Shown: in pieces, positions 9,462 to 28,797 of the stretch | How positions within the stretch are numbered: position 1 is the stretch's first letter | Layout: every line of letters begins with the position of its first letter | NCBI RefSeq assembly: GCF_013816785.1 | Contig: NZ_JACDDV010000011.1 | Span: forward strand, 1 to 43,121 | Source: Sphingomonas sp. | GTDB lineage: Bacteria > Pseudomonadota > Alphaproteobacteria > Sphingomonadales > Sphingomonadaceae | DNA length: 43,121 bases | Direction: 5' to 3' | Position numbers and translations under genes: made by a program | Notes under the pieces: generated by a model | Told to the model about the DNA's origin: nothing | The model's input: only the letters and a program-made list of their open reading frames with translations | Database searches by the model: none

Positions 9462-10652
9462 ATGCCCGCCGATCTCACCACCTTCGCCGATGCCGCCGAG
9501 TCGCAACGCGACGACCTCATCAAACTTCGCCGCGCGATTCATGCCGAGCCGGAGCTGGGCCTCGACTGCCCGACGACGCGCGACAAGCTTGAGACTGCGC
9601 TCGCCGGCCTGCCTCTCACCCTCCGCCGGAGCGCGCGATGCAGTGGCTTCGTCGCGGTTCTGGAAGGGGCAACCAAGGGTCGTACGGCCCTCCTGCGCGG
9701 CGACATGGACGCGTTGCCCATCCACGAGGCGACCGGGCTCGATTTCGCGAGCCGGACGGCGGGGTTGATGCACGCTTGCGGCCATGACAGCCATTCGGCC
9801 ATGCTGGTCAGCGCGGCACGCATATTATCGGCGCGGCGCGACCAATTGTCGGGACGCGTCTTGTTCATGTTTCAGCCGGGGGAGGAGGGGCACCACGGCG
9901 CGCGCACCATGCTCGAGGAAGGCTTGCTCGGCGATCCGCTCCCCGATGGCGCCTTCGCGCTCCACATCTGGCCGACGCTGGCCCACGGAACCATCGCCTG
10001 CCGCGCCGGGACGATGCTGGCCTCGACCGATACGCTTATCGCCCGCATCGTCGGCAAGGGCGGCCACGCGGCAATGCCCCACGATGCGATCGACCCGGTT
10101 CCGGTCGCCGCCGAAGTGGTGCTGGCTCTCCAGACCGAGGTCGCGCGACGCACCCCCGTGACCGACCCGATCGTCCTGTCGATCACCAAAATCGCCGCCG
10201 GCACCACCCACAACGTCCTGCCCGACTCGGTCGACCTGCTCGGCACGCTGCGCACGCTGTCGCCCGAGGCTCGCGCACGCGGCCGCGCCGCGTTCGAGCG
10301 GATCTGCACTCATGTCGCTGCCGCACACGGCTGCACCGCCGAAGTCGCCATCGAGCAGGGCTATCCGCCGACTGTCAACGATCCGCGCGCGGTCGCGTTG
10401 ATCCGTGAGTTGGCGGGCGACGCCTTTTGGGAGCCGCCCGCATCCAATATGGGCGGCGAGGATTTCGCCTATGTGCTCGAGCGCGTTCCGGGCGCGATGG
10501 CTTTCCTTGGCGTCGGGCCGGCGGGGGAGGAGGCCAAAGGCCGAGCGCCGCTCCACAATCCGGGGATGATGATCGACGAGGCAGCGTTGCCGATCGGGGT
10601 CGCGCTTCACTGCGCCTTCGCGACGCGCCTCCTGGCCGAGGGGTGGAGCTGA
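9462..10652 (+). CDS. M20-family amidohydrolase (N-acyl amino acid / hippurate hydrolase type)
   Basis: A 396-residue zinc-dependent amidohydrolase. Metal and catalytic motifs are RGDMDALP (79-86), HACGHDSHSAM (104-114) and the catalytic EE pair at 141-142, followed by the dimerisation domain (about 190-300) and the C-terminal MGGEDFAYVLERVPGAM motif typical of the M20D subfamily (AbgB/HipO/ILL-like). These enzymes remove acyl groups from amino acids or peptides. No strong signal peptide is seen, so it is likely cytosolic. The OPT peptide transporter gene that follows would fit scavenging of peptides or acylated amino acids, but that link is inference. The exact substrate cannot be read. Confidence 0.92.
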   Translation: MPADLTTFADAAESQRDDLIKLRRAIHAEPELGLDCPTTRDKLETALAGLPLTLRRSARCSGFVAVLEGATKGRTALLRGDMDALPIHEATGLDFASRTAGLMHACGHDSHSAMLVSAARILSARRDQLSGRVLFMFQPGEEGHHGARTMLEEGLLGDPLPDGAFALHIWPTLAHGTIACRAGTMLASTDTLIARIVGKGGHAAMPHDAIDPVPVAAEVVLALQTEVARRTPVTDPIVLSITKIAAGTTHNVLPDSVDLLGTLRTLSPEARARGRAAFERICTHVAAAHGCTAEVAIEQGYPPTVNDPRAVALIRELAGDAFWEPPASNMGGEDFAYVLERVPGAMAFLGVGPAGEEAKGRAPLHNPGMMIDEAALPIGVALHCAFATRLLAEGWS

Positions 10653-10729
10653 TTTTGCTGTCCTACACAGCGAATTTATGATTGATTTTGGCTCTGATCC
10701 GGCTGGGAGCGTCGAGAATCGTCGCTCAT

Positions 10730-10747
10730 CATCAACTTCATCAACTT
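10730..10747 (+). repeat. 18-base motif shared with 26539-26556, copy 1
   Basis: CATCAACTTCATCAACTT, itself a near-tandem of CATCAACTT, lies 19 bases upstream of the OPT transporter start. The identical 18 bases recur between mrr and rplQ. Function unknown; a leader or operator role is conceivable. Confidence 0.5.
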
Positions 10748-10765
10748 TCCCTTGGGAATTCTCCT

Positions 10766-12739
10766 ATGGCTTCGACCCCGATCCCCGCTCCCAGCCTTAA
10801 AGAGCTCACGCTTCGCGGCGTGATCCTCGGCGCGTTGATCACCGCCCTGTTCACCGCCGCCAATGTCTATCTCGGATTGAAGCTGGGCCTCACATTCGCG
10901 ACCTCGATCCCAGCGGCGGTGATCTCGATGGCGGTGCTCAAATTTTTTAACGACGCGACTATCCAGGAAAATAATATCGTCCAGACCATCGCCTCCGCGG
11001 CGGGGACGTTGAGCGCGATCATCTTCGTACTGCCCGGGCTCATCATGATCGGCTGGTGGACTGGGTTTCCCTTCTGGCTCTCGGCCGCAACGATTGCGCT
11101 CGGCGGCATCCTGGGCGTGATGTACTCGGTGCCGCTCCGCCGCGCGCTCGTCACCGGATCGGACCTCCCCTATCCCGAAGGCGTCGCCGCGGCCGAAGTG
11201 TTGAAAGTCGGCGCCGGCGTCGGCGGGGCAGAGGAGAATAGGCGCGGCCTCGCCGCCATCGTCCTGAGCTCGCTCGTCTCGGCTGCCTTTGCGCTTCTCG
11301 CCCAGACCAAGATTGCGGTCGCCGATGCGGCCCGAAGCTTCGGCTTCGGCTCCGGCGCGACAACTGTCTCGACCAGCCTGTCGATGGCCCTGATCGGGGT
11401 GGGCCACCTCGTCGGCATGGCCGTCGGCATCGCCATGCTGGTCGGCCTGATCATTAGCTGGTTCGTGCTTGTCCCGTGGCAGACCGGCCTCGCCGGAATC
11501 ACCGCCGGGGCCGACCTCGACACATTGGTCGGCACGGTGTTCCGCGAGAAAGTGCGCTTCATCGGCGCCGGCACGATCGGCGTCGCCGCGATCTGGACAT
11601 TGCTCCGCATCCTCGGCCCGATCGTCAAGGGCGTCACCTCGGCCATCGCCGCCAGCCGGGCGCGATCGGTCGGCGGGCAGGACAGCCTTCCCCTGACCGA
11701 GCGCGACCTGCCGATCGGTATCGTCGGCGGGACCATCCTGTTCTCACTCATCCCGATCGGCCTGTTGCTCCACGCCTTCGCAAGCACGAACCCAATCGCC
11801 GCGGCGCCGGGGCTGACGATCGGCCTCAGCCTGCTCTACATCCTGTTCGCCGGTGCGGTGATCGCCGCCATCACCGGTTATATGGCGGGCCTGATCGGCG
11901 CGTCGAACAGCCCGGTGTCGGGCGTGGGCATTCTGACGGTGCTCGGCATTTCGCTGATCCTCGCCGCCATTTTTGGCCGCGACATCGGGGTCGACGCTTC
12001 GAAAAGTCTGGTCGCGTTCGCGCTGTTCGTCACCGCAATCATTTTCGGCGTGGCAACCATCGCCAATGACAATCTGCAGGATCTGAAGACCGGCCAGCTG
12101 GTCGGCGCTACTCCATGGCGGCAACAAGTCGCGCTGGTGCTCGGCGTGATTTTCGGATCGCTGGTTATCCCGCCGATACTGACCATTCTCAACGACGCTT
12201 TCGGCTTTCAGGGGGCGCCGGGCGCTGGCCCCAACGCGCTCGCCGCGCCGCAGGCGGCGCTGATCTCGGCGATCGCGCAAGGCGTTCTCGGCGGCAACCT
12301 TAACTGGAATTTGATCGGCCTCGGCGCCGCGATTGGAGTGATGGCCGTTGCGGTCGACGAAATTTTACGAGCCACCAAACGCGGCTGCTTGCCGCCGCTC
12401 GCGGTTGGAATGGGCATTTATTTGCCGATGGCCCTCACCCTGCTGATCCCGGTCGGCGCGGTCCTTGGTTATTTCTACAATAAAGCGGTCGAGCGGGCCC
12501 CCGATCCGCCCTTCGCCCAGCGGCTCGGCGTCCTCATGGCCACCGGGCTCATTGTCGGCGAAAGCTTGTTCGGTGTCACCTTCGCCGCCATCGTCGGCGC
12601 TACCGACAATGACACGCCGCTCGCGCTGGTCACCGACTTCCCGCTCGCGGTCCCTATTGGCCTGACCGTCTTCACCGGCTCGATCCTGTGGCTCTACGCG
12701 GCAACACGGCGCAAGGCCGCGCACGCCCTGCCGGCCTAA
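10766..12739 (+). CDS. OPT-family oligopeptide transporter
   Basis: A 657-residue integral inner-membrane protein with roughly 15 hydrophobic segments. The first helix region reads NVYLGLKLGLTFATSIP, a hallmark of bacterial OPT proteins, and SDLPYPEGVAAAEVL in the second loop is another. OPT carriers import small peptides or metal chelates using the proton gradient. ATG 10766 is chosen over the 28-residue upstream extension, which is poor and includes the ATCAACTT repeat at 10730-10747. queF starts three bases after the stop. Substrate unknown. Confidence 0.92.
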   Translation: MASTPIPAPSLKELTLRGVILGALITALFTAANVYLGLKLGLTFATSIPAAVISMAVLKFFNDATIQENNIVQTIASAAGTLSAIIFVLPGLIMIGWWTGFPFWLSAATIALGGILGVMYSVPLRRALVTGSDLPYPEGVAAAEVLKVGAGVGGAEENRRGLAAIVLSSLVSAAFALLAQTKIAVADAARSFGFGSGATTVSTSLSMALIGVGHLVGMAVGIAMLVGLIISWFVLVPWQTGLAGITAGADLDTLVGTVFREKVRFIGAGTIGVAAIWTLLRILGPIVKGVTSAIAASRARSVGGQDSLPLTERDLPIGIVGGTILFSLIPIGLLLHAFASTNPIAAAPGLTIGLSLLYILFAGAVIAAITGYMAGLIGASNSPVSGVGILTVLGISLILAAIFGRDIGVDASKSLVAFALFVTAIIFGVATIANDNLQDLKTGQLVGATPWRQQVALVLGVIFGSLVIPPILTILNDAFGFQGAPGAGPNALAAPQAALISAIAQGVLGGNLNWNLIGLGAAIGVMAVAVDEILRATKRGCLPPLAVGMGIYLPMALTLLIPVGAVLGYFYNKAVERAPDPPFAQRLGVLMATGLIVGESLFGVTFAAIVGATDNDTPLALVTDFPLAVPIGLTVFTGSILWLYAATRRKAAHALPA

Positions 12740-21031: not shown

Positions 21032-21093
21032 CTTGGCGAACCACCACGGTGGTCTCGCGAGTTTCATATGAAGGCGGGAGACGTTCCGCCAAG
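21032..21093 (+). promoter_or_regulatory. possible leader structure upstream of rpoA
   Basis: CTTGGCG (21032-21038) can pair with CGCCAAG (21087-21093), enclosing the small hairpin ACCACC-AC-GGTGGT (21040-21053). It lies between rpsK and rpoA, where it could influence rpoA translation. Only the pairing is seen; the role is unknown. Confidence 0.3.
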
Positions 21094-21106
21094 GGCAGGA
21101 AGAAAC

Positions 21107-22186
21107 ATGGCCGTCAACACTAAGAACTGGCAGGAACTCAAGAAGCCCAACGCGCTCGAGCGCAAGACTGGCACCGATGTGCGCCGCAAGGCGATCTTCG
21201 TCGCCGAACCGCTTGAGCGCGGCTTCGGCATGACGCTCGGCAACAGCCTGCGTCGCGTATTGCTCTCCTCGCTCCAGGGCGCGGCGGTGACCTCGATCAA
21301 GATCGAGGGCGTTCTCCACGAATTCTCGTCGCTCGCCGGGGTCCGCGAGGACGTCACCGACATCATCCTCAACGTCAAGCAGATCGCGCTCAAGATGGAA
21401 GGCGAAGGCCCCAAGCGGCTGCAGCTGAGCGCGACCGGCCCGGGCGAAGTCACCGCCGGGCAGATCGCCGCGACCGGCGATATCGAAGTCACCAACCCCG
21501 AGCTGGTGCTGTGCCACCTCGACGACGGCGCGACGCTCAACATGGAGCTGACAGCCGACATCGGGAAAGGCTATGTGCCGAGCGCGGCCAACCGCCCGGC
21601 CGACGCGCCGATCGGCCTGATCCCGGTCGACGCGCTGTACAGCCCGGTGCGCCAGGTCGCCTACAAGGTCGAGAACACCCGCGTCGGGCAGGAGCTCGAC
21701 TATGACAAGTTGACCCTGACGATCGAGACCGACGGCACCGTCACCCCCGAAGATTCGCTCGGCTATGCCGCGCGCATCCTGCAGGACCAGCTGCAATTGT
21801 TCGTCCACTTCGACGACAGCCAGGTTCGCGCCGCGCCGGCGGCGGGCATGGTTGGCGGCGTCGGCGGCATGGGCGGCGGCGCGACCGACACCGCGACCGA
21901 CACCAACCAGCTCAACCGCTACCTGCTCAAGAAGGTCGACGAGCTGGAGCTCAGCGTGCGCAGCGCCAACTGTCTCAAGAACGACAACATCATCTACATC
22001 GGCGACCTGGTCCAGAAGACCGAAGCCGAGATGCTCCGCACGCCGAACTTCGGCCGCAAGAGCCTCAACGAGATCAAGGAAGTCCTTGCCTCGATGGGCC
22101 TCCGCCTCGGCATGGACATCCCCGGCTGGCCACCGGAAAATATCGAAGAGATGGCCAAGAAACTGGAGCAAGAGCTTTTAGGCTGA
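21107..22186 (+). CDS. rpoA: DNA-directed RNA polymerase subunit alpha
   Basis: A 359-residue alpha subunit. The N-terminal dimerisation domain contains [20 protein letters not shown] and the assembly region [16 protein letters not shown] flexible Gly-rich linker (about residues 243-270) leads to the C-terminal domain, which has [13 protein letters not shown] and [17 protein letters not shown] and contacts UP elements and activators. ATG 21107 has AGGA upstream and fits the family start; the 13-residue extension does not. In nearly all alphaproteobacteria rplQ follows directly. Here a terminator and the 22341-26332 cassette intervene. Confidence 0.98.
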
Positions 22187-22198
22187 CCAGCCGGTCGG

Positions 22199-22217
22199 GC
22201 CTGTCCGGGGGACAGGC
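22199..22217 (+). other. hairpin just after rpoA
   Basis: GCCTGTCC-GGG-GGACAGGC, a perfect 8-bp stem 13 bases after the rpoA stop. It lacks a T-run, so it may stabilise the mRNA 3' end or be a remnant of a dispersed palindrome. Confidence 0.45.
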
Positions 22218-22262
22218 TCGAAAAACCTCTCTGCTCGGCTGACACGGTTCGGGAAGCGCAAG

Positions 22263-22290
22263 GGGCCGCCTTAGAAGAGGCGGCCCTTTT
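22263..22290 (+). terminator. rho-independent terminator after rpoA
   Basis: GGGCCGCCT, a six-base loop, AGGCGGCCC and then TTTT. The stem is perfect over 9 bp. It would end most rpsM-rpsK-rpoA transcripts before the restriction cassette and so separate rplQ from its usual promoter. Confidence 0.75.
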
Positions 22291-22340
22291 CATTTGGCGT
22301 TATGCTCGCCAATGTGCAGGCGCTCGGGTGAGGGGTGCGT

Positions 22341-25300
22341 GTGAGCCGGCAGTTGATCAACGAATATCGCGGCGAGCTGGACCGCCTCAAGTCGATTTCG
22401 GGCAGCCGTCGCGAAAGCGTTCTGCGTGAGGCGTTCAAGGATCTGCTCAAGCGCTGGGGCAAATCTAACGACCTTCAGTTCATCGCCGAATATGATCTGA
22501 TCACGCCCAAGGGCAACCGCATCGCGCTCGACGGCGCCTTGCTCCACAGCCTCCGTGTTCCGTTCGGCTATTGGGAAGCCAAGGATGAGGACGACGATCT
22601 CGCCAAGGAGATCGAGGCCAAATTCCGCAGCGGCTATCCCAAAGACAACACCATCTTCACCGACGACGCGACCTCGATCCTTTATCAGGACGGCCACGAA
22701 GCCGGCAGCGCGCCCATGGACGATACCGAAGCACTGTTTGTCCTACTCACCCATTTCTTCGCTCACGAGCGGCAGGAGGTCGCCGATTTCCGCAAGGCGG
22801 TGAAGCAATTCGCGACCGACCTTCCTGCCGTGCTCGCCGCCCTGCGCGACATCATCGCCGAAAAGCGCGCCGCAAGCAGCGCCTTCGCCAAGGCCGAAAC
22901 CGACTTCCTCGCCCACGCCCGCGATGCCATCAACCCGGCGGTCAACGAGGATGACGTGCAGGAAATGTTGATCCAGCACATTCTCACCGAGGACATCTTC
23001 GCCAAGGTGTTCGAAAACCCCGACTTCCATCGCCAGAACAACGTCGCAGCGGCGCTTTATGCGCTCGAGGAAAAGCTTTTCGGCTATGGCGAAAAGCAAA
23101 GGCTGCTGAAGGCGCTCGGCCCCTATTACTCGGGCATCGCCTCGACCGCCGCCGTGATCGAAAGCCATTCCGAAAAGCAGGGCTTCCTCAAGGGACTCTA
23201 CGAGAATTTCTACAAAGTCTATAATCCGCTGGCCGCCGACCGTCTCGGCGTCGTCTACACCCCCGGCGAAATCGTGCGTTTCATGATCCGCAGCGCCGAC
23301 TGGCTGTGCCACGAACATTTCGGCAAGCACCTTGAGGATAAGGGCGTCGAGATCCTCGACCCTGCCACCGGCACCGGCACGTTCATCGTCGAACTGCTCG
23401 AACATTTCCGCGGCAACCGGGAAAAATTGGCGCACAAATATAAGGAGGAGCTTCACGCCAATGAGGTCGCGATCCTCCCCTACTACGTCGCCAATTTGAA
23501 CATCGAGGCGACCTACGCGGCGATTACCGGCCAGTTCGCCGAATATCCCAACCTGTGCTTCGTCGACACGCTCGACAACGTCGCCGCGCTCGGAATTTAT
23601 GCGGGCCACCAGGGAGACATGTTCGGCTCGGTCAGCGACGAAAACCTCGGCCGCATCAAGCGCCAGAACGAACGCAAGATCAGCGTCATCATCGGCAACC
23701 CACCCTACAACGCCAACCAGCAGAACGAGAACGACAACAACCAGAACCGCACCTATGCGCGCATCGATAGCCGCATCAAGCAGACCTACATCAAGGCCAG
23801 CACTGCGCAAAAAACCAAGCTTTACGATATGTATGCGCGCTTTTATCGGTGGGCGACGGATAGGCTTGGCAAAGAAGGTATTGTTGCGTTCGTCACAAAC
23901 AATAGCTTTCTGGAAGCCCGCACATTTGATGGATTCCGCAAGAAGGTAGCAGAAGATTTTAGCGAAGCTTGGGTAATCAACCTAAAGGGCAACGCCCGCA
24001 ACAGCGGCGAGAGGCGCAAGCGCGAAGGTGGCAATGTTTTCGAAGACAAAATTAAGGTCGGAATAGCGATCGCCTTTTTTGTTCGGCGGAAGACATCAAC
24101 GCCCTTCCGTATTCATTATCTTGCAGTTCAAGACTTCGCCCGCGAGGACGACAAGCGTCAATTTGTTGATCAAACGCGGCTCGATCACAGTCTATTTACA
24201 ACCATCTTACCCAAAGCCGATGGGACCTGGCTTGGTCAAAATGAGAGTGCGGAGTGGGATGCAATGTTGCCCATTGCCAGCAACGCTTCAAAGCGAGCTA
24301 TAGACCGACGCAAACATGACGCAATTTTTCAACTCTATACACTCGGCATTGTCACGAATCGTGACGAATGGGTCTATGACTTTTCGGCTAAAGAAGTTCG
24401 CCGTCGCGCGCTTAAGCAGGCTAAGATTTATGACTCCGCAATCGCTGATCCTCGTCCTTTCGAAAAAAGCGACGACGCCGAAAAGCGCTTTTCTCCCGAC
24501 ATAAAATGGACCCGGTTGCTGAAAGCCTCTGCTCGGCGGCGGCGGCTACTTGGCGACGTGGCATCACAAGTCCGCAAGTCAGCCTATCGGCCGTTTGTTA
24601 GCAAATGGGTTTTGTTCAATACGCTATTGAATGAGTTCCAATATCAGACACCGTCGGTCTGGCCCGACGCCACGACGACGAACAGCTCGATTGCACTCGT
24701 ATCCGAAGAACGCGCACAGTTTGGCACTCTCGCCTTCGAGGATTTGCCCAACAAAGACATGTTCATGCCCAGCGCGTCGCAGGTCCTCCCTCGCCACCGC
24801 TACACCAAGTCCGGCGAGCGGGTGGACAATATCACTGACTGGTCGGTGGCGCAGTTCCGCGCGCACTATGGCGAGGCGTTCCCAGGCGAGAAAGACGCCA
24901 TCTTCGCTTACGTCTACGCCGTCCTCCACGACCCGTTCTACCGCGAGAAATATGCGCTCAATCTCAAGCGCGAATTCCCTCGCATCCCTTTCTATCCCGA
25001 CTTCGCGCAATGGGTGGCGTGGGGCGAGGCGCTGCTCAAGCTGCACATCGATTATGAGAAGCAGAAACCGTTCAAGCTGACCCGCAACGACACCCCCGCA
25101 CCAAAACGCGCTGCCGACACCCACCCCAAGCCCAAGCTGAAAAGCATCACCGATACCGGTACGATCGTCGTAGACGAGGACACTCAGCTTTCAGGCATCC
25201 CGCCGGAGGCCTGGGCCTACCGCCTCGGCAATCGCTCGGCCATCGACTGGGTGCTCGACCAGCACAAGGAAAAGACCCCGCGCGACCCGACCATCCGCGC

Positions 25301-25442
25301 CAAGTTCAACACCTACCGTTTCGCCGATTACAAGGAGGAGATGATCAAGCTTCTCGCCAAGGTGGTGACGGTGAGCATGGAGACGGTGAAAATTACCGAC
25401 GCGATGCGGGATCTCAAACGCGACACCGGAGAAGGCAATTGA
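22341..25442 (+). CDS. nuclease-methyltransferase fusion, type IIG / helicase-less type ISP-like restriction-modification protein
   Basis: A 1033-residue protein. Residues 1-130 look like a PD-(D/E)xK nuclease: D64 in RIALDGALL and E79-A-K81 in GYWEAKDED. A helical linker follows, then an N6-adenine methyltransferase with YTPGEIV (306-312), motif I DPATGTGTF (340-348) and motif IV NPPY (453-456). The C-terminal 450 residues should hold the target-recognition part. No DEAD/DEAH helicase domain is present, unlike full-length type ISP enzymes such as LlaGI. GTG 22341 has GAGGGG five bases upstream; in-frame GTG 22335 is less likely. About 23800-24720 is visibly richer in A/T than the flanks. mrr follows with a TTGA overlap. 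Confidence 0.85.
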   Translation: MSRQLINEYRGELDRLKSISGSRRESVLREAFKDLLKRWGKSNDLQFIAEYDLITPKGNRIALDGALLHSLRVPFGYWEAKDEDDDLAKEIEAKFRSGYPKDNTIFTDDATSILYQDGHEAGSAPMDDTEALFVLLTHFFAHERQEVADFRKAVKQFATDLPAVLAALRDIIAEKRAASSAFAKAETDFLAHARDAINPAVNEDDVQEMLIQHILTEDIFAKVFENPDFHRQNNVAAALYALEEKLFGYGEKQRLLKALGPYYSGIASTAAVIESHSEKQGFLKGLYENFYKVYNPLAADRLGVVYTPGEIVRFMIRSADWLCHEHFGKHLEDKGVEILDPATGTGTFIVELLEHFRGNREKLAHKYKEELHANEVAILPYYVANLNIEATYAAITGQFAEYPNLCFVDTLDNVAALGIYAGHQGDMFGSVSDENLGRIKRQNERKISVIIGNPPYNANQQNENDNNQNRTYARIDSRIKQTYIKASTAQKTKLYDMYARFYRWATDRLGKEGIVAFVTNNSFLEARTFDGFRKKVAEDFSEAWVINLKGNARNSGERRKREGGNVFEDKIKVGIAIAFFVRRKTSTPFRIHYLAVQDFAREDDKRQFVDQTRLDHSLFTTILPKADGTWLGQNESAEWDAMLPIASNASKRAIDRRKHDAIFQLYTLGIVTNRDEWVYDFSAKEVRRRALKQAKIYDSAIADPRPFEKSDDAEKRFSPDIKWTRLLKASARRRRLLGDVASQVRKSAYRPFVSKWVLFNTLLNEFQYQTPSVWPDATTTNSSIALVSEERAQFGTLAFEDLPNKDMFMPSASQVLPRHRYTKSGERVDNITDWSVAQFRAHYGEAFPGEKDAIFAYVYAVLHDPFYREKYALNLKREFPRIPFYPDFAQWVAWGEALLKLHIDYEKQKPFKLTRNDTPAPKRAADTHPKPKLKSITDTGTIVVDEDTQLSGIPPEAWAYRLGNRSAIDWVLDQHKEKTPRDPTIRAKFNTYRFADYKEEMIKLLAKVVTVSMETVKITDAMRDLKRDTGEGN

Positions 25443-26332
25443 ACATCCTCAACCTCCGCAAGGACGATTTTTATATCCCGGTTCTCAAGACGCTCGACGC
25501 GCTTGGCGGCTCAGGACAGATTGAGGAAATTGATTCCAAGGTCATTGAAATGACCGGCATGACCGCCAGCGACCTCGAGGCAACATATGAGAAAAGCGGA
25601 AGCCTCATCGTTCCCGACAAGATTAGCTGGGCGCGCTCCTATCTGAAGGAAGGCGGGCTGATCATCAATGAGGGGCGGGGACTGTGGGTTCTAACTGAAA
25701 AGGGTCGCGAGAAGCTAACGCTTGGCGAGCAAGCGGTGCGAGACGCCGTCACCGAGGCGATGCGAATCTACAACAAAAATTACAATGCCGCCAAAGCCAC
25801 CAAGAAGAAGAGCGCGCCGCAAGAGCCGAGCGAATTGGTGGATGCGGCAGCCAATATCGAGCTCGACGAAGTCGGCGAATGGGCCGACCAGTTGCTCGCC
25901 AAGCTACAATCGATGGACCCATATGCTTTCGAACGGCTGTCGCAGCGGCTGCTGCGCAAGAACGGCTTCGTCCAGGTCGAGGTAACAAAGAAATCGGGTG
26001 ACGGCGGGATTGATGGAAAGGGCGTGGTGCGGGTCAATCTGGTCTCGTTTCACGTGCTGTTCCAGTGCAAGCGCTATCAAGGCTCAGTGGGTGCAGGCAC
26101 AGTGCGTGACTTCCGCGGGGCGATGCAGGGTCGAGCCGACAAGGGGCTGATCATCACCACCGGCACCTTTACTCCTGATGCGCGTAAAGAAGCGACGCGC
26201 GATGGGGCGCCGGCGATCGATCTGATTGACGGCGCGGCGCTGTGCGAACTGCTTAAGGACAATCGACTGGGCGTCTCAGTTGAAATGGTCGAGCAGGTCA
26301 CGCTCATTCCCGAGTTCTTCGACGAGATTTAA
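25439..26332 (+). CDS. mrr: Mrr-type restriction endonuclease
   Basis: A 297-residue protein. Residues about 5-95 form the Mrr N-terminal winged helix, followed by a Lys-rich linker (115-135) and the Mrr catalytic domain: FERL (164-167), GDGGIDG with D192, and the QCK of FQCKRYQG (Q209, K211), the complete D-QxK active site. Mrr proteins usually cut methylated DNA (type IV restriction). The TTG start overlaps the methyltransferase stop (TTGA) and has GGAGAAGG in front, so the nuclease is translated only after its neighbour. Whether it acts as the restriction partner of that enzyme, or independently against foreign modified DNA, cannot be read from sequence. Confidence 0.92.
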   Translation: MNILNLRKDDFYIPVLKTLDALGGSGQIEEIDSKVIEMTGMTASDLEATYEKSGSLIVPDKISWARSYLKEGGLIINEGRGLWVLTEKGREKLTLGEQAVRDAVTEAMRIYNKNYNAAKATKKKSAPQEPSELVDAAANIELDEVGEWADQLLAKLQSMDPYAFERLSQRLLRKNGFVQVEVTKKSGDGGIDGKGVVRVNLVSFHVLFQCKRYQGSVGAGTVRDFRGAMQGRADKGLIITTGTFTPDARKEATRDGAPAIDLIDGAALCELLKDNRLGVSVEMVEQVTLIPEFFDEI

Positions 26333-26538
26333 GCGCGCAAGTTATAAGATCCTTGCAATCTGAAACCAAATAGGTTACGCAAATCTCGGCTCACAGTGGA
26401 AGAGTTGGGATGGGTTGTCACCGGAACATTGCGGCGCAGGCGGGACGCCCGAGCACCCTCCCGTTCGAACGCGCAACCCCTCCCGCCCGCACGCGCGCGT
26501 CAGTGCGACCATTGGGACCATTCGAATGTTCGACCCAC

Positions 26539-26556
26539 CATCAACTTCATCAACTT
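26539..26556 (+). repeat. 18-base motif shared with 10730-10747, copy 2
   Basis: CATCAACTTCATCAACTT, identical to the copy ahead of the OPT transporter; the following bases also keep a CC...GGAA pattern. It lies in the mrr-rplQ gap. Function unknown. Confidence 0.5.
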
Positions 26557-26705
26557 CGCCTCCGGAAAAATCCTTCGGCGGCGTGTCGTCCCGGCGTCAA
26601 CTTGCGCCCGTCCGGCCCGGTCTCGGCTTGACTTTCGCGGGCCGATCGGGTTGAGGAGCCGCTGATGAAGCGGGGCCGCGCGCTCCGCTTTCGCTTTTGG
26701 GTTTG

Positions 26706-26726
26706 GGCCGTCCCCTTTTGACGGCC
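26706..26726 (+). other. hairpin upstream of rplQ
   Basis: GGCCGTC-CCCTTTT-GACGGCC, a perfect 7-bp stem 48 bases before rplQ. It could be a leader structure or part of a terminator for the cassette; there is no downstream T-run. Confidence 0.35.
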
Positions 26727-26774
26727 TGGCCGGGGTTACCTGACACGGACCCCTGACGAACGAAGGACAAGAAA

Positions 26775-27194
26775 ATGCGACATCGTGTTGGCCATCGCAA
26801 ACTGCAGCGCACCTCGAGCCACCGGACAGCCCTGTTCCGCAACATGGCGGCGGCGCTGATCAAGCATGAGCAGATCACCACCACCACCGCCAAGGCGAAG
26901 GAGCTGCGCCCCTACGTCGAGAAGCTGATTACGCTCGCCAAGAAGGGCGGGCTGTCGAACCGCCGGCTGGCGCATGCGCGGCTGATGGACGATGCGCAGC
27001 TGGTCAAATTATTCGACGTGCTGGCGACGCGCTATGCGGGTCGCGACGGCGGCTATTGCCGGATCGTCAAGGCCGGCATCCGCATGAGCGACGCCGCCGC
27101 CATCTCGATCATCGAATTCGTCGATCGCGACGTCGCCGCAAAGGGTCAGGATTCGGGCCCGGTGATGACTGACGAGGAAGTCGACGCCGACTAG
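26775..27194 (+). CDS. rplQ: 50S ribosomal protein L17
   Basis: A 139-residue protein with the L17 start [20 protein letters not shown], the conserved [15 protein letters not shown] segment and the [12 protein letters not shown] helix. L17 binds 23S rRNA at the base of the exit tunnel. AAGGA precedes the ATG. It is separated from rpoA by about 4.6 kb, whereas it normally follows within about 200 bases, and is followed by a strong terminator. It therefore probably has its own promoter or relies on read-through of the cassette. Confidence 0.98.
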
Positions 27195-27412: not shown

Positions 27413-28024
27413 ATGTCGAATATTTCCAAGCTTCTGGTCGGCGCGGCCGGCCTTGCGGCGGTGGTCGGCGTGGCGTCGCCGGCGATGGCCCAGGGCTATC
27501 CCTACGGCTATGGCAATCAGGGCCAAAGCACCGGCAGCGGCATCGTCGGCGCAATCATCAATTCGGTGACGGGCGGCGGCTACGGCCGCTATCCGCAAGG
27601 CAATTACGGCTATGGCCAGGTCAACGAGCGGACCGCGGTCAGCCAGTGCGCCGCCGCCGCCGAGCAGCGCCTCAACGGCGGCTATGGCCAGTCGAGCTAT
27701 GGCAACCAAGGCTATGGCAATAACGGCTACCAAAGCGGCTACGGCCAAGCCCGCGTCGTCGGCATCACCAACGTCGAGCGCCGTAGCAACGGCAAGCTGC
27801 GCGTGACCGGCTTGGCGAGTTCGGGCCAGGCATATGGCGGCTACGGCAACCAAGGTTACGGCAACCAGGGCTATGGCAACCAGGGCTATGGCAACCAGGG
27901 TTATCAGGGCGGCTACGGCGCCGCCGGCCAGGCCGACCTGAGCTTCACCTGCAAGGTCGATTACAGCGGCCGGGTGACCAGCCTCAATTTCAACCGCCAG
28001 ACGGCGTACGGGCGCGGTTACTAA
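27413..28024 (+). CDS. exported Gly/Tyr-rich repeat protein, paralogue 1
   Basis: A 203-residue protein with a clear signal peptide ending ASPAMAQ (residue 27). The mature part is rich in Gly, Tyr, Asn and Gln, with four perfect YGNQG units at residues 144-163 plus scattered variants. Two cysteines (C79 in SQCAAAAEQR and C180 in FTCKVDY) and the VVGITNVERRSNGKLRVTG strand pair suggest a small disulfide-linked folded domain interrupted by repeat loops. The adjacent gene encodes a paralogue with the same cysteines and motifs. I do not know the function; an envelope-associated role is inferred from the signal peptide. Confidence 0.8.
   Translation: MSNISKLLVGAAGLAAVVGVASPAMAQGYPYGYGNQGQSTGSGIVGAIINSVTGGGYGRYPQGNYGYGQVNERTAVSQCAAAAEQRLNGGYGQSSYGNQGYGNNGYQSGYGQARVVGITNVERRSNGKLRVTGLASSGQAYGGYGNQGYGNQGYGNQGYGNQGYQGGYGAAGQADLSFTCKVDYSGRVTSLNFNRQTAYGRGY
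27842..27901 (+). repeat. 15-base tandem repeat encoding YGNQG x4
   Basis: Four near-identical 15-base units (TAYGGCAACCARGGY) in tandem inside the Gly/Tyr-rich gene. Such in-frame repeats can expand or contract without shifting the frame. Confidence 0.85.
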
Positions 28025-28236: not shown

Positions 28237-28797
28237 ATGTCGGCGAAGACGAAAATCCTGGCCGGAGCCACCGGTCTTGCGGCCCTGGCAGGTGTAACGA
28301 CCCCGGCAGCCGCGCAATATTATCCTCAACCCAGCCCTTACGGCAACCAAGGCGGCGGCGTTGTCGGCGCGATCATCAACAGCGTCGTCAACGGCGGTCG
28401 CTACGGCCAGTATCCGTACGGCAATTATGGCTACAACCAGGGCTATGGCGGCCAGAGCACGGCGATCGATCAGTGCGCCCGCGCGGTCGAAGCGCGGATC
28501 AGCGGCCGCAGCTACGGTAACTATGGCTACCGAAACTATGGCTATAACGGCTATGACAGCGGCAACGGCGGCCGCGTGCTCGGCGTCACCCGGGTCGAGC
28601 GTAAGTCGTACGGCCTCAAGGTCGTCGGCGTCGCCAGCTCGGGCTACAACCGCTACGATGGTTACAACCGGGGCGGTTATGGCTCGTACGGCTACAGCAA
28701 CGGTGCGGATTTGAGCTTCACGTGCAAGGTCGACTACCGCGGCGGCATCCGTGACATCCACGTCAACCGTCGCAGCGCCAACTGGCGCGGCTACTAA
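28237..28797 (+). CDS. exported Gly/Tyr-rich repeat protein, paralogue 2
   Basis: A 186-residue relative of the preceding protein. It has a signal peptide ending TTPAAAQ (residue 27), the shared GxVGAIINSV segment, two matching cysteines (C80 in DQCARAVEAR and C163 in FTCKVDY), and the VLGVTRVERKSYGLKVVGVASSG strands, ending NWRGY as its partner ends YGRGY. The repeats here are irregular NYGY and GYN units rather than YGNQG. AGGAGA before ATG 28237 decides the start over the longer frame beginning at 28108. The two genes look like a tandem duplication in which the loops diverged faster than the core. Confidence 0.8.
   Translation: MSAKTKILAGATGLAALAGVTTPAAAQYYPQPSPYGNQGGGVVGAIINSVVNGGRYGQYPYGNYGYNQGYGGQSTAIDQCARAVEARISGRSYGNYGYRNYGYNGYDSGNGGRVLGVTRVERKSYGLKVVGVASSGYNRYDGYNRGGYGSYGYSNGADLSFTCKVDYRGGIRDIHVNRRSANWRGY

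Follow-up and report, generated by a model that had tools for sequence, protein, structure and literature searches.

How does a restriction cassette come to stand between rpoA and rplQ, two essential genes of one ribosomal operon, and what keeps both genes working around it? The question is raised by a stretch of 43,121 nucleotides from Sphingomonas sp. (contig NZ_JACDDV010000011.1, positions 1 to 43,121; hereafter the window), in which the stop of rpoA (22186) and the start of rplQ (26775) are 4,588 bp apart and enclose two open reading frames (ORFs). A sequence-only reading of the window had described these as a two-gene restriction cassette splitting rpoA from rplQ, a 1,033-residue fusion and an Mrr-type nuclease overlapping at TTGA, and our analysis agrees on every point of that description. 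Comparison across the genus leads us to regard the rpoA-rplQ junction, with fair confidence, as a hotspot of insertion that is insulated on either side and whose cargo is probably exchanged by recombination in the flanking sequence.

On the left of the cassette, rpoA (21068..22186, forward strand, like every feature in this paragraph) encodes the RNA polymerase alpha subunit and matches RNA_pol_A_CTD. It is followed by an intrinsic terminator (22262..22295) with a stem at 22262-22287 and a T-rich tail; the folding energy of the 40 bases at 22258-22297 is -24.8 kcal/mol (z = -4.97), a value equalled by 0 of 200 shuffles, which bears out the terminator that had been placed before the cassette. 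A consensus scan did not list this terminator. ORF1 (22341..25442, GTG start, 1,033 residues) is a predicted DrdV-like type IIG restriction-modification enzyme by its Pfam, PADLOC and PDB matches, and ORF2 (25439..26332, 297 residues, its TTG start overlapping the TGA of ORF1) an Mrr-type nuclease with Mrr_N and Mrr_cat domains and PADLOC support. Between ORF2 and rplQ lie a promoter-like element, TTGACT-N17-TTGAGG (26628..26656), and a conserved leader (26697..26774) with the motifs (A/G)CCTNNNACGG and ACGAAC. The promoter-like element recurs in relatives with a broken junction, in keeping with a promoter of its own for rplQ, one of the two options (another promoter or read-through) that the sequence-only reading had named. 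On the right, rplQ (26775..27194) encodes ribosomal protein bL17.

We located the alpha C-terminal domain and L17 in a sample of 71 genomes of the genus and compared their places. A junction was counted as resolved (54 of 71) when both genes shared a contig, or when they lay on different contigs of an assembly with no more than about 10; the remaining 17 genomes were fragmented or without one or both genes. Among the resolved genomes, 22 have an intact junction with 90-230 bp between rpoA and rplQ, and in 32 the two genes are not neighbours. The broken junctions comprise 17 same-strand gaps (1.4 to about 23 kb), 5 pairs that share a strand but are over 100 kb apart, 6 pairs on opposite strands, 1 pair in reversed order and 3 pairs divided between contigs. 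The sequence-only reading had described rpoA and rplQ as adjacent in nearly all bacteria; in this genus their adjacency cannot be presumed. Among 62 listed genomes from other genera of the order, a score-selected subset of about 270 searched, at most 3 have a junction that is broken or could not be decided: G178 and G208 have gaps, and in G157 the two genes lie on separate contigs. The difference between the genus and the other genera gives a Fisher p of about 9e-11, a value that is indicative since relatives are not independent.

As a control within the operon, rpsK lies directly 5' of rpoA in 50 of 51 testable copies; six loci were too short, and two loci in the set may belong to other genera. 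The one copy that departs from this order is a second, partial rpoA in a fragmented assembly. In the fragmented genome G034, a partial second rpoA lies 5 kb from the full copy (L160:5109-5636, 10387-11457), either a duplication or a misassembly, and near a NOV_C protein that resembles the PDC-S36 protein of G026.

Close relatives of the window genome differ at this very place. Its sister, G024, also has a gap, with different content, and the next relative, G328, is intact with an empty site. Comparison of the interval across genomes, which the sequence-only reading had in view, rejects an old fixed arrangement with the same genes in all close relatives: 22 of the 54 resolved genomes are without an insert, and the window's type IIG enzyme was found in 0 of the 36 other same-genus genomes searched, which gave four distant matches at 26-38% identity. 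The idea of a favoured landing site is upheld by the empty sites and other cassettes of relatives, and the junction shows what defines a hotspot, namely the same core flanks, differing cargo and empty sites in other genomes. On a two-gene tree of 56 rows (without G010 and G343, and including G178 and G208 of other genera), the intact and broken states need 12 changes, at least 6 of them forced by well-supported branches; label shuffles average 17.1.

The broken junctions have a frame in common. A terminator at -19 kcal/mol or better lies 3' of rpoA in 28 of the 29 broken genus loci for which the rpoA end was fetched (the exception is G323), and in 29 of the full set of 34 scanned tails, which also takes in unresolved loci and other genera. 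By the same criterion 1 of the 22 intact loci (G019) has one, and G001 has a weak one. At the other end, TTGAC stands 125-206 bp 5' of rplQ in all 31 broken loci with the upstream region fetched (that of G338 was not), followed at promoter spacing by TT(G/T)AG in 23 of the 31; the reversed control pattern CAGTT occurs in none of them. The matching stretch of intact loci holds TTGAC in 1 of 22, again G019. Since G019 has both the terminator and the TTGAC element and no gene in its 230 bp, we read its junction as insulated but empty. In intact genomes of other genera, TTGAC at that distance was seen in 1 of 20 sampled (G301), with the rest of the motif absent.

We also considered whether these signals are particular to the junction. 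The terminator is unique to rpoA only in part: its strict consensus follows rpoA in 21 of the 34 loci that are broken, split or unresolved and in 0 of 22 intact ones, and has 7 matches elsewhere in the 458,664 fetched bases. Of these seven, one is the window's own terminator read on the reverse strand, and five, judged by position, are just 3' of rplQ in intact genomes. The terminator may be a common type of these bacteria, and the copy after rpoA is possibly a relocated old operon terminator. TTGACT-N17-TTGAGG was tried as a genome-wide promoter family and is not supported as one, its single exact match in the genome being at rplQ; the shorter CTTGACT has 4 matches in the window, a count within chance expectation.

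The rplQ leader can be recognised in the 57 loci aligned, whether attached to rpoA or detached, with (A/G)CCTNNNACGG in 55 and ACGAAC in 56, and is a probable L17 r-leader. An H-type pseudoknot pattern with compensating changes is found in 43 of the 57 leaders, versus a mean of 3.3 and a maximum of 9 in 20 rounds of shuffling. Under the rule applied to all 57, the window's leader (26697-26774) shows no pseudoknot. Alignment A2 holds 46 of the 57 leaders, and Rfam 15 gave no match to the leader at E up to 1. According to the accessible text of one study, an L17 leader is predicted in Actino- and Proteobacteria, Alphaproteobacteria included (PMC7247131), so the leader is known in kind. Like that published r-leader, the conserved leader here lies directly 5' of rplQ, and it differs from it, as far as the accessible text goes, in the pseudoknot indicated in most of the aligned leaders.

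What fills the gaps varies. Restriction or other defence genes of unrelated kinds adjoin rpoA in at least 5 of the 17 same-strand gaps. Besides the cassette of the window, the slot on the rpoA side holds a different type IIG enzyme in G006 (879 bits to another PADLOC model), a 299-residue protein followed by a C5-cytosine methylase and a Vsr nuclease in G196, genes matching the PD-Lambda-5_A and PDC-S36 models in G026, and, in G018, an N4/N6 methylase next to a protein of 809 residues that has no family. Some gaps have parts in common (G008 with G341; G014 with G197; and G002, G006, G196 and G330 among themselves). G006, G196 and G002 form a supported clade (100/99) and have a helicase part in common at 82-85% identity, yet the slot on their rpoA side, which begins directly behind the terminator, contains a type IIG enzyme, a C5-methylase with Vsr, and neither, respectively. 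Because these three genomes agree in the helicase part and differ in the slot, we read the difference as cargo turnover at one place.

Two of these proteins stand out as observations in their own right. The 809-residue protein of G018 (L110:1980-5618), tail to tail with the N4/N6 methylase, has no match in Pfam, PADLOC or PHROGs and is a candidate new defence or restriction partner. The 299-residue protein of G196 (L105:6219-7118), likewise without a match in those three collections, is perhaps the cognate restriction enzyme of the C5-methylase. Gene calls in the fetched loci come from a simple caller trained on those loci, and small genes are uncertain.

Other gap contents include acyltransferases (G004, G024), PAS/GAF histidine kinases (G002, G004, G330), a DEAD-box helicase (G002), a SpoU-type methylase (G023), beta-barrel proteins (G008, G341), and a prolyl oligopeptidase with a thioesterase-like protein (G009). 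Terminase-small-subunit-like proteins (phrog_4044, about 250-340 residues) recur in the gaps of G006, G009, G018, G024 and G026 (L102, L103, L106, L108, L110). A helix-turn-helix (HTH)-like protein of about 59-67 residues recurs near rpoA at broken or unresolved junctions (L116:4174-4356, L097, L100, L114, L128, L162); the one copy scanned scored just above the Phage_terminase cut-off and the others were matched by eye. Outside the same-strand gaps of the genus, a 346-residue protein of G178, from another genus, matches viperin models (1.5e-10), and a TIR-TPR protein is encoded downstream of rpoA in G325 (L132:359-2107), a genome in which rplQ has moved away. In the window, two similar Gly/Tyr-rich proteins with signal-like starts are encoded 3' of rplQ (27413-28024 and 28237-28797); several genomes of the genus have look-alikes, recognised by eye, next to rplQ or guaA.

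We propose that the junction exists in two forms. In the fused form 90-222 bp separate the two genes and the rplQ leader lies downstream of rpoA; in the insulated form a strong terminator would end rpoA transcription, and rplQ would be expressed from its own promoter-like element and L17-type leader, whose functions as promoter and leader we infer from sequence conservation. A gap is tolerated, we suggest, because of the terminator and the promoter-like element, and foreign genes between rpoA and rplQ would then cut off neither essential gene. Cargo would be gained and exchanged by recombination in the conserved flanks. The window shows none of the marks of an integrase-driven genomic island (integrase, tRNA, attachment repeats at the edges): there is no integrase gene among the ORFs of its cassette, no tRNA was found within the window, and no repeat flanking the cassette edges is convincing. 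Recombination in the flanking core genes is therefore the likeliest route. At the cassette edges stand a terminator like those of the relatives and the promoter-like element that they also have, which argues against a chimeric assembly. A more specific version, in which the genus has made an insulated docking site where, between the terminator and the promoter and L17 leader of rplQ, lineages swap restriction and other defence cassettes with the two essential genes as homology arms, we offer tentatively, at somewhat less than an even chance.

Several observations weigh against the insulated hotspot. The 15 of 32 broken cases that are not same-strand gaps call for more than an insertion site, as does the 12-kb gap of G009, whose genes resemble a rearranged neighbourhood. 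The clustering of broken states on the tree (12 changes against 17.1) means that some broken genomes share one event, and when other genera are included the genus is not one clade in the two-gene tree, leaving the insulated form unrooted. The -10 half of the rplQ promoter-like element is atypical and the exact element occurs only once in the genome, and the window's leader folds alone no better than shuffles (z = -0.49). Moreover, 12 of the 17 gaps have no restriction or defence gene recognised among the subset of genes scanned, so the site is not defence-specific; PADLOC on seven proteins of these twelve gaps gave one weak match (SduA, 3.6e-4, a kinase of G330).

Alternatively, the junction may be a general breakpoint, at which an rplQ promoter of its own ended selection for adjacency and left the place to chance rearrangements and passengers with no tie to defence. 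The distant, inverted, reversed or split cases fit such an account, as do the mostly ordinary genes beside rpoA and rplQ in them where the flanks were fetched, and the gaps in which no defence gene was recognised. It accounts less well for the unrelated restriction and defence genes that adjoin rpoA in at least 5 of the 17 gaps and for close relatives that differ exactly there. We consider that the general breakpoint has a sizeable chance, if not the better one, of being the right description, and it is partly compatible with the insulated hotspot.

The genes of the window's cassette are themselves ordinary; the novelty is the site. ORF1 combines nuclease, coupler, N6-adenine methyltransferase and specificity domains in one chain, with Pfam matches to ISP_coupler, N6_Mtase/Eco57I and Type_ISP_C and 1135 bits to the PADLOC model REase_MTase_IIG. 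The PDB entries 7lo5/7lvv, labelled in the PDB table as adenine-specific methyltransferase and which we take to be DrdV, align with residues 1-1022 (1013 bits) in the same domain order. The nuclease part, which has no Pfam domain, was assigned by alignment to this solved enzyme and by the PADLOC model: GYWEAKDE of ORF1 stands opposite GYWESKDE of 7lo5/7lvv (WEAK versus WESK). The methyltransferase motifs IIGNPPYNAN (NPPY) and DPATGTGTF are kept; WEAK presumably marks the nuclease site and NPPY the methyltransferase. Judged by sequence, ORF1 is thus a DrdV-like type IIG restriction-modification enzyme, with the domain order and the nuclease and methyltransferase motifs of DrdV, from which it differs in a diverged specificity region and in the Mrr gene that overlaps its end. 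Compared with ten sphingomonad relatives in blocks of 60 residues, residues 601-840 (24141..24860, forward strand) are only 18-52% identical, residues 541-600 are 30-78% identical and the blocks outside 541-840 are 48-97% identical. Residues 601-840, from the methyltransferase to the specificity part, are likely an exchanged target-recognition region. An AT-richer stretch at about residues 481-720 (47-51% GC versus 55-64% elsewhere) overlaps it only partially. In the accessible account of DrdV, a single chain comprises nuclease, methyltransferase and recognition domains, and the enzyme cuts in tetrameric form on several sites (PMC10201449).

ORF2 scores above the Pfam cut-offs for Mrr_N (60.1 bits) and Mrr_cat (114.5 bits) and matches PDC-S02 and mREase_IV in PADLOC, the latter nearly over its full length; no solved relative was found by sequence at E 0.01. 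It has both domains in common with Mrr-type type IV restriction nucleases and differs from them in being paired with a type IIG gene. As family knowledge goes, the type IIG enzyme is predicted to methylate adenines of host DNA and cut unmodified sites, and the Mrr-type protein to cut foreign DNA with other methylation.

Could the pair be a small mobile unit that chose the site itself? The same gene order, with an Mrr protein 59% identical, occurs in Novosphingobium sp. BIN27 (L019) and Allosphingosinicella vermicomposti (L021), at sites other than rpoA-rplQ. Standing side by side in two other sphingomonads elsewhere, the genes evidently move as a unit now and then, and relatives of ORF1 are found in 306 plasmid records, 303 of them less than 60% identical. 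However, an Mrr gene is downstream of the type IIG homologue in only 2 of the 66 loci with more than 1 kb of downstream sequence, none of the 80 fetched loci homologous to the window's type IIG gene shows rpoA or rplQ, and the cassette has the edges described above, with no integrase gene, tRNA or convincing repeat. We find self-directed insertion of the pair unlikely.

Equally improbable is selection of the site for high expression by read-through from the ribosomal operon (the sequence-only reading had suggested a landing site that keeps a defence cassette highly expressed): the cassette is oriented like rpoA and a simple scan of the rpoA-ORF1 interval gave no sigma-70-type promoter match, but the strong terminator between rpoA and the cassette, present also at nearly all broken junctions examined, makes the site look insulated and leaves operon-driven expression unsupported, and the first defence gene after rpoA is on the opposite strand in G026 (on the same strand in G006, G196 and G018). 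Under the insulated hotspot, the type IIG and Mrr pair would need a promoter of its own or weak read-through.

Integrases acting at tRNA genes are a common explanation for hotspots. For chromosomal hotspots that lack integrases, the accessible text of an earlier study puts forward double homologous recombination in the core genes on either side and reports defence genes as overrepresented there (PMC5635113). The rpoA-rplQ junction resembles those hotspots in its variable cargo between fixed core genes, and differs, so far as that text goes, in that its core flanks belong to one ribosomal operon and conserved transcription signals stand on both sides; our sample has one genome per species, whereas theirs had many strains of one species. 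The defence-island hotspots of E. coli likewise have different defence cargo at a fixed place; their carriers, according to the accessible part of the report, are as a rule identified mobile elements (Hochhauser et al. 2023, PMC10121019), and no such element was identified at the window's cassette. In the literature, mostly outside subscription journals and as far as the titles and abstract openings listed go, we found no report of an insertion site between rpoA and rplQ; in the one paper with the phrase 'between rpoA and rplQ', the accessible text describes strain building in Bacillus.

Taken together, one of the most conserved gene neighbourhoods of bacteria has been opened repeatedly in this genus, and a way is suggested by the sequence: each of the two essential neighbours has transcription signals of its own, so that the gap is safe. 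The site offers a natural test of operon splitting and of exchange through core-gene homology, and is a place to seek unrecognised defence genes.

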